DNA of 5,671 bases from Deltaproteobacteria bacterium (GTDB lineage: Bacteria > Desulfobacterota > Syntrophia > Syntrophales > UBA2210). The translations under genes were made by a program, and so were the position numbers. Shown piece by piece: positions 1,580-5,671 of the stretch (within the stretch, counting starts at the first letter, position 1; each line of letters opens with the position of its first letter). The notes beneath the pieces are model-generated. The model was not told the DNA's origin. It saw nothing but the letters and a program-made list of their open reading frames with translations, and made no database searches. The stretch covers positions 1 to 5,671 of the forward strand of contig JAFCZZ010000272.1 in the NCBI GenBank assembly GCA_019314085.1. Direction: 5' to 3'.

Positions 1580-2506
1580 ATGGATTCTGAAACACACAGC
1601 ACCCACTGGGTGGAAATACTCAAAGACGGCGTTATCGGCGCGTGGCCCATCTGTCTCGGTTATCTTGCCATCGGCCTGGCCTTCGGCGTGATCGCCCAGA
1701 AGGCGGGTCTCAGCCCCGTGGAGATCGGTCTCATGTCCCTGCTCGTCTACGCGGGCAGTTCCCAGTTTATCGCCGTCTCGATGCTGAGCGCCGGGGCAGG
1801 CATCGTCCCCATCGTGATCACCACCTTTACCGTTAACCTGCGTCACATGCTGATGAGCTCGTCACTTGCGACCTTTATGCGCAATCTCGGCATATGTCGG
1901 CTCTCCCTCTTTGCCTACGGGGTGACGGATGAGAGCTTCGCCCTCAACAGCGCAAAGTTCAGGGACGGGAAGTGGGACTGGAGGCGTGCCCTCGTCCTGA
2001 ATCACACAACGAATCTCACCTGGATCGCCAGCACGGTGGCGGGCGGATTCGGCGGACAGTTCATCCCCGCCGGGGCTCTCGGAATCGACTATGCCCTGAG
2101 CGCCATGTTCATCTGCCTCCTCGGCGGCGCTCGGAGTTGTCCTCAAAAGATCGCGGACATCCTCAAACGCGGAGGGACAGTCATGATACATGCCGACTAT
2201 CTGTACATCCTGATCGGGATGGGGATCGTCACCTACGTGCCCCGATGGCTTCCCCTCGTGGTCCTGTCCCGCCGGAAACTGCCGGAGTGGTTTGAGCAGT
2301 GGCTCGACCTGGTTCCGGCGGCAATACTGAGCGCTCTGATACTCCCGATACTGATCACAACGGGGGAGCCCCGGCACCTCGATCTCGTGCGGCCCGAGCT
2401 TCTCGTGGCGCTGCCGACCTTTCTCTTCGCTATTAAGACACGGTCGCTGGCGGGAACCGTCGTCCTCGGTATGTTTCTCTTCTGGCTCGCCGGAAAATTT
2501 CTATAA
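1580..2506 (+). CDS. azlC: AzlC-AzlD branched-chain amino acid exporter as one fused ORF, AzlC part internally deleted
   Basis: A 308-residue membrane protein. Residues 1-181 are AzlC: PICLGYLAIGLAFG (23-36), the YAGSSQF motif (57-63), TVNLRHMLM (84-92), GVTDESFALN (114-123) and the segment up to SAMFICLL (174-181). Residues 202-308 are a complete AzlD. AzlC and AzlD are normally separate inner-membrane subunits (about 230-250 and 100-110 residues) that together export branched-chain amino acids and analogues. Here AzlC stops being recognisable after residue 181: its last hydrophobic segments, roughly 40-55 residues, are absent. The rest of the AzlC C-terminus survives out of frame (2124-2186). 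The linker GGARSCPQKIADILKRGGTV (182-201) is that tail and the azlD ribosome-binding region read in the wrong frame. The ATG at 1580 has only a weak upstream purine run (AGGGCAGAG), and no better in-frame start is seen. Whether the fusion is functional, decayed or an assembly artefact is open. Confidence 0.85.
   Translation: MDSETHSTHWVEILKDGVIGAWPICLGYLAIGLAFGVIAQKAGLSPVEIGLMSLLVYAGSSQFIAVSMLSAGAGIVPIVITTFTVNLRHMLMSSSLATFMRNLGICRLSLFAYGVTDESFALNSAKFRDGKWDWRRALVLNHTTNLTWIASTVAGGFGGQFIPAGALGIDYALSAMFICLLGGARSCPQKIADILKRGGTVMIHADYLYILIGMGIVTYVPRWLPLVVLSRRKLPEWFEQWLDLVPAAILSALILPILITTGEPRHLDLVRPELLVALPTFLFAIKTRSLAGTVVLGMFLFWLAGKFL
2124..2186 (+). pseudogene. azlC: Out-of-frame remnant of the AzlC C-terminus
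   Basis: In the +1 frame relative to the upstream AzlC reading frame, 2124-2186 translates to A-A-L-G-V-V-L-K-R followed by a polar tail and TGA at 2184-2186. The small-hydrophobic run ending in VVLKR and then a short polar tail is how AzlC proteins typically end. The TGA overlaps the azlD ATG as ATGA, the classic coupling in azlCD operons. This fragment is the strongest evidence that the upstream ORF is a rearranged azlC rather than an evolved fusion with a designed linker. The breakpoint lies near 2120-2128; the lost segment must be 3n+2 bp long to explain the frame change. Confidence 0.7.
2171..2176 (+). promoter_or_regulatory. Internal ribosome binding site for azlD
   Basis: GGAGGG stands 6 nt before the ATG at 2183, inside the fused ORF. 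It is the best Shine-Dalgarno match in the export operon, clearly better than the one before azlC, and supports separate translation of AzlD. Confidence 0.65.
2183..2506 (+). CDS. azlD: AzlD subunit, separately translatable from an internal start
   Basis: From the ATG at 2183 the frame encodes 107 residues, the normal AzlD length. It begins with a hydrophobic segment YLYILIGMGIVTYVPRWLPL (numbered 207-226 in the fused ORF), carries the typical AzlD RRKLPEW and DLVPAAILSALILP stretches, and ends with further hydrophobic helices. AzlD is the small partner of AzlC in the inner-membrane exporter. The start is supported by the adjacent GGAGGG and by the ATGA overlap with the ancestral azlC stop. 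In the present sequence ribosomes initiating at 1580 would also read through this region, so the locus can in principle make both a fused protein and free AzlD. An EamA transporter gene starts 20 bp after the stop. Confidence 0.7.
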   Translation: MIHADYLYILIGMGIVTYVPRWLPLVVLSRRKLPEWFEQWLDLVPAAILSALILPILITTGEPRHLDLVRPELLVALPTFLFAIKTRSLAGTVVLGMFLFWLAGKFL

Positions 2507-5269: not shown

Positions 5270-5671
5270 TTATATGGTCTTCTTCTTAGTTTTTGTTGAT
5301 TTCCAAGGCTTGAAAATGGAAATAAAGATCGTAGTCATCAATACCAAGACTTGAATAGTTCCAAAAATCAAATTCATCTTTTCACTGTATAAGTATTCTG
5401 AGTTGCTCAAAGATGATATTCCGATCTTTCCAGAAATTTCCATCATATTAGCTTCCCAAGGCCCAAGATAAAATGTTCCGAATAAAATAGCCGCTACGGT
5501 GACAACCCACTTGAATATCATCCAAGTGTGCTTGAAAAATCCCCAATTACTGAATGACGAGTAGATTAAACCTGTAACCAGACAGCCAAAAGCACCTGGG
5601 ATTACAACCACTGCCATATCCACATGATGAACACTCTGATTTATTCCATATAAAACTCCGCCGTCATCAAC
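5270..5671 (-). CDS. Small integral membrane protein, probably DUF2269-like (C-terminal part, cut by window edge)
   Basis: The frame stays open from the stop at 5270-5272 to the right edge, giving 133 visible residues; a GTG at 5623 is an internal codon rather than a convincing start, because the frame continues upstream with protein-like sequence (V-D-D-G-G-V-L-Y-G-I-N-Q). Three membrane segments are visible at about residues 19-37, 53-70 and 101-120 of the visible part. Conserved-looking stretches are NWGFFKHTWMIFKW (42-55), LFGTFYLGPWE (63-72) and IFGTIQV (102-108), and the tail is strongly basic (KSTKTKKK), hence probably cytoplasmic. I associate this pattern with DUF2269-type membrane proteins, whose function is unknown; that assignment is from memory and moderate. 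The coding region is about 37% G+C, far below its neighbours. A separate transcript from the nitroreductase operon is plausible given the 149-bp gap. Confidence 0.75.
   Translation of the reverse strand, partial: VDDGGVLYGINQSVHHVDMAVVVIPGAFGCLVTGLIYSSFSNWGFFKHTWMIFKWVVTVAAILFGTFYLGPWEANMMEISGKIGISSLSNSEYLYSEKMNLIFGTIQVLVLMTTIFISIFKPWKSTKTKKKTI

Follow-up and report, generated by a model that had tools for sequence, protein, structure and literature searches.

The closest described systems are the LIV-E exporters (TC 2.A.78) AzlCD, BrnFE, and YgaZH. In passages of one published account, BrnF, the counterpart of AzlC, has seven membrane helices and BrnE has four, the two proteins form an obligatory pair, and overexpression of either BrnF or BrnE alone gives neither export nor analogue resistance (PMC8140960). 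The same passages make efflux by BrnFE dependent on the membrane gradient, with amino acid export driven by the proton motive force having been reported (PMC8140960), and passages of another paper present AzlCD of B. subtilis as a bipartite exporter with 4-azaleucine, histidine, and asparagine as its substrates (PMC10882977). Searches of the literature for AzlC/AzlD, BrnFE, and YgaZ found, among the titles listed, none on a fused AzlC-AzlD. The locus considered here lies in a window of 5,671 nucleotides (the whole stretch of DNA that was analyzed) and resembles these exporters in its complete AzlC Pfam domain and AzlD, in the order azlC-azlD, and in a readable ATGA. It differs from them in that its AzlC appears to lack the last two helices and the native tail and in that the subunits stand in one frame; instead of two separate, adjacent, and complete subunit genes, there is one frame of 308 aa with a truncated AzlC. 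The explanation favored here, and considered probable, is that an ordinary azlCD operon has undergone a recent, private 119-bp deletion, which yields a fused chain of 308 aa and inactivates the exporter.

Organization of the fused frame

The features of the locus are listed with their evidence in parentheses; L numbers denote loci of relatives, and P numbers denote protein matches.

1580..2506 (+): fused 308-codon frame (open reading frame)
1580..2122 (+): 5′ part of azlC, residues 1-181, ending within the last membrane helix that is kept (Pfam; P0001; 92% identity to L001)
2121..2122 (+): deletion junction, where 119 bp of the relatives are absent, with 1-2 bp of microhomology (alignment with relatives)
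2123..2182 (+): 3′ remnant of azlC, read as the out-of-frame 20-residue linker GGARSCPQKIADILKRGGTV; its +1 frame is the normal AzlC tail (three-frame translation; pLDDT)
2171..2175 (+): Shine-Dalgarno-like GGAGG, 7 nt upstream of the azlD ATG (sequence; function putative)
2183..2506 (+): complete azlD, 107 codons, with its own ATG (Pfam; stand-alone relatives of 107 aa, the best at 91%, P0121)
2184..2186 (+): +1-frame TGA, the original stop of azlC, which shares an ATGA with the azlD start (also in L001-L006 and L008)

Both families are recognized by score within the single open frame. The Pfam AzlC match (PF03591) reaches 145.5 bits against a cut-off of 32.1 and covers residues 23-162 and the entire profile (positions 1-137 of 137), while AzlD (PF05437) is matched at residues 208-304 over profile positions 2-98 of 99 with 89.7 bits against a cut-off of 23.7. 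The AzlC match stops at residue 162, and the deleted part consequently lies outside that model. The match to TIGR00346 (221 positions) ends at position 168 for the window protein and at position 217 for P0001, the best protein match, and the scores (84 and 90.9 bits, respectively) are both below the equivalog cut-off of 332.35 bits. Three-frame translation places the AzlC tail AALGVVLKRSRTSSNAEGQS and the TGA after it (2184-2186) in the +1 frame only, and it shows AzlD starting from its own ATG in phase with the N-terminal part of AzlC. The open reading frame, Pfam, and three-frame translation thus agree with the original prediction, which had placed azlC and azlD in one ORF, with AzlC recognizable to residue 181 and its tail only in the +1 frame. 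In a search for stand-alone AzlD, P0121 was the best match at 91%, and no 99% sibling was among the matches listed from this database, which is clustered at 90%.

The 119-bp deletion in azlC

Alignment with seven close relatives (L001-L006 and L008), whose record titles place them in Syntrophales and Deltaproteobacteria, opens a gap of 119 columns in the window, which is filled in 7/7 of them, with intact flanks on both sides; the gap was reproduced on realignment of five of the seven. The break falls at 2121/2122, with 1-2 bp of ambiguity or shared sequence at its ends, and the length is 3x39+2, or 39 2/3 codons. The best protein match, P0001 (241 aa, from a 2919-bp contig of a Deltaproteobacterium MAG), is identical to the window at 180 of residues 1-181 (99%), continues beyond residue 181 with two further hydrophobic stretches, and ends in AALGVILKRSRTSSNAEGQS; its last 20 residues share 19 with the +1-frame tail of the window, and its residues 182-221 are absent there. 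P0001 is considered here as a protein alone. A simple frameshift was rejected, as the 39 2/3 codons are absent rather than shifted, and a deletion between long repeats was rejected with just 1-2 bp of microhomology. At the level of sequence, the intact azlD and a deletion of this length at this position, as measured against the relatives compared, can be regarded as demonstrated. An out-of-phase internal deletion in azlC had been predicted, and the comparison with relatives that was proposed for defining the missing segment and any microhomology bears it out: the length of 3n+2 is exact, the break lies within the expected interval (2120-2128), and the expected loss of 40-55 residues comes close to that found.

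The codons that remain look ordinary in comparison with the relatives. Against L001, the 181 azlC codons include 32 with synonymous and 14 with non-synonymous differences, and the 25 codons of azlD that could be compared include 5 and 0, respectively; for L003, the corresponding numbers are 41 and 18 among the 181 azlC codons and 31 and 13 among 107 azlD codons. L001 is also the nearest DNA (86.9% over 2125 aligned bases), so that the window probably derives from a Syntrophales-like bacterium. Synteny of the surroundings is partial: L001 and L004 share the order NTP transferase gene, Fe-ADH, azlC. EamA follows azlD in L002 and L003, and in L004, M55 follows azlD with no EamA between them. A nitroreductase and a 133-codon frame of the window had no match in loci L001-L068; the latter (5270-5671, - strand) is membrane-like, runs off the window end, and has no Pfam match. 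A scan of 1380-2600 gave 0 sigma-70-like promoters and two terminator-like sites, against 1.1 expected, and Rfam gave 0 matches.

Distribution of the missing segment and of fusions

The scan of contigs yielded 68 loci, 67 of them with an azlC match by tblastn (L064 has azlD only). Residues 182-221 are covered to 80% or more by the alignment in 62/67 of the azlC loci, counting L006, whose alignment runs in two frames because of a lesion of its own. The alignment stops early in L027, L057, L058, and L065, where the frame remains open for a further 147, 105, 147, and 147 nt, respectively, which leaves room for a diverged segment, and in L025, it stops near the contig end. Among the 60 of these 67 loci that could be judged, having both a stop and an azlD match, none carries a fused azlC-azlD. 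In the family of L001's genome, 13 of the 19 genomes searched gave a match, and azlC is uninterrupted over the segment in 12 of the 13; the remaining one, G006, has a different lesion of 13 bp.

At the level of the order, P0030, a two-domain protein, was matched by 48/155 genomes, and in one of these, G039, both halves fall within a single open match. This 363-aa frame (L120; G039:C50:63484-64473) was not counted as a fusion because the NN in a codon TNN, two codons ahead of the ATG that opens the AzlD part, could hide a stop. In the phylum draw, the window protein was matched by 96/395 genomes, and among the matches listed for these 96, none that starts in AzlC passes residue 208. An AzlD-side match in G180 (residues 175-308) crosses the junction position but has an internal TAA, and G356 and G378 each show one match over both halves but with an internal TAG, and were read as separate genes. 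P0030 is the only two-domain protein among the best 120 of 3849 protein matches, and the truncated fusion of the window does not recur among them. A search of other proteins of 169-539 aa for an AzlD half found none at E <= 0.001 among 659 candidates and carries no weight, since P0030 was also missed; a plasmid collection gave no match to the window. An established AzlC-AzlD fusion with the same junction in independent genomes, which the original prediction had recognized as a case of many relatives sharing the short linker, was therefore rejected: the junction is absent from the 60 judged loci and from the listed phylum matches, and it appears private within the relatives that were examined.

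P0030 (356 aa, from a 1760-bp metagenome contig) likewise has AzlC followed by AzlD, with 52% identity over 97% of the window protein, and differs in that both AzlC helices are kept and AzlD is joined directly after the "ALKR" end of AzlC; it may either function as a true single-chain exporter or owe its fusion to a frame error. Two other lesions of azlC occur in close relatives. The Syntrophales MAG STD1_132 (G006/L006) resembles the window in an azlC broken by a small deletion next to an intact azlD, and differs in that 13 bp are missing and the frameshift causes no fusion. This lesion (L006:1421-1436 and following; G006:C68) lies at a 7-bp direct repeat of L001, GGCGGGC, of which the window copy has one mismatch, and the title of the L006 record gives a coverage of 4.04. 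In P0046 (173 aa, 1061-bp contig), compared as a protein alone, the last ~21 residues are out of frame, with the break near the same G/C-rich stretch. L006, P0046, and the window represent different events, and they could reflect either an occasional loss of azlC in the group or contig errors.

Gene overlap as the source of the fusion

The TGA of azlC overlaps the ATG of azlD as ATGA in L001-L006 and L008, and azlD in the window keeps its own start site, two points that go beyond the original prediction. The azlD frame is moreover open upstream of its ATG, with a total of 230 aa in G002, G003, and G004, 194 in G006, and 148 in G001 (where the match is at the contig start), and only 119 in G005 and G007. 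A 3n+2 deletion near the end of azlC would, judging from these frames, read into azlD in most, not all, of these relatives, and a third of all deletion lengths would join the genes wherever that frame is open. The overlap of the azlC stop with the azlD start, together with the open frame, therefore means that a 3n+2 deletion joins the two genes with no special cause needed. The fusion is an accidental by-product and gives no evidence of selection for a fused protein.

Loss of AzlC helices and its probable consequence

In the structure model of P0030, the last two AzlC helices are residues 206-225 and 230-251, and both are absent from the window protein. The linker of the window protein (residues 183-202) is modeled with pLDDT < 50, as are residues 253-278 of P0030. 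The alignments behind the models (61 and 60 rows) left the AzlC and AzlD rows unpaired, and MAFFT aligned part of the out-of-frame linker with an AzlC helix; the models were used for the AzlC helix count only. A sequence search of solved structures gave no match at E <= 0.1, and a Foldseek comparison of the fusion model with the PDB gave nothing usable (best E 0.027, TM 0.18). The P0030 model and homology support the loss of the last two AzlC helices, where one or two missing membrane segments had been anticipated. With AzlC incomplete, the exporter would presumably be inactive. AzlD alone may still be made from its own ATG and the GGAGG before it.

Origin of the locus and alternative explanations

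The sequence of events in the favored explanation would begin with an ordinary azlCD operon for a two-subunit LIV-E/AzlCD exporter in a Syntrophales-like bacterium; a recent and private deletion of 119 bp would then have taken out the part of azlC that encodes its final two membrane helices. Given the ATGA overlap and the 3n+2 length, the broken azlC frame would continue into azlD, and the product would consist of AzlC to residue 181, 20 out-of-frame linker residues, and the complete AzlD, 308 residues in all. With hardly any microhomology at the ends, the deletion may have arisen by illegitimate end joining or replication slippage. Recent inactivation by deletion is preferred because both exporter subunits are needed, as passages of PMC8140960 indicate, and of the outcomes considered in the original prediction, a dead exporter fits best. 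Apart from the deletion, azlC and azlD carry no lesion, which is expected of a very recent deletion and equally of an artefact; with so little decay, the deletion is either recent or absent from the genome itself.

The deletion may exist in the assembly only, azlC being intact in the genome and 119 bp having been skipped through a chimeric read, gap closing, or a strain mixture. Such an assembly or library artefact is the main alternative, possible though less likely. A near-identical intact AzlC is known in P0001, and both of the other azlC lesions in close relatives (L006 and P0046) also come from metagenome or short contigs. The neighboring genes that can be compared with relatives argue against it, as no lesion is seen in Fe-ADH (388/388 residues aligned with L001), M55 (305/305 with L004), or EamA (290/293 with L003). 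The 1-2 bp shared at the junction would also be too little for a collapse driven by repeats in a k-mer assembler, and this route appears disfavored, while a chimeric read or a gap-closing step remains compatible with the junction.

It is very unlikely that the fused protein is a functional single-chain exporter, or one evolving toward a new topology with AzlD in the place of the lost AzlC helices. In favor of this reading, no stop interrupts the frame before the end of AzlD, both Pfam profiles are matched over their whole length, the full-length AzlC joined to AzlD in P0030 indicates that covalent joining may be tolerable, and the loss of two helices would keep the parity of membrane crossings. 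Against this, P0030 retains both of the helices that the window protein lacks, the segment, present in 62/67 loci, is not demonstrably missing from any of the remaining five, the linker lacks a confident fold and consists of out-of-frame sequence, and no equally truncated fusion is among the best 120 of 3849 protein matches. The novel single-chain topology that had been put forward is disfavored because the junction was seen in none of the relatives compared, two conserved helices are gone, and the linker is out of frame. More improbable still is a real deletion whose 308-residue product, truncated as it is, exports amino acids as a single chain, with AzlD standing in for the lost helices.

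Implications

Under the favored explanation of a recent inactivating deletion, the locus adds one case of azlC disruption with an intact azlD in this bacterial group and means little beyond the locus itself. The overlapping stop and start (ATGA) lets an ordinary deletion mimic a gene fusion, which is a trap for automatic annotation.
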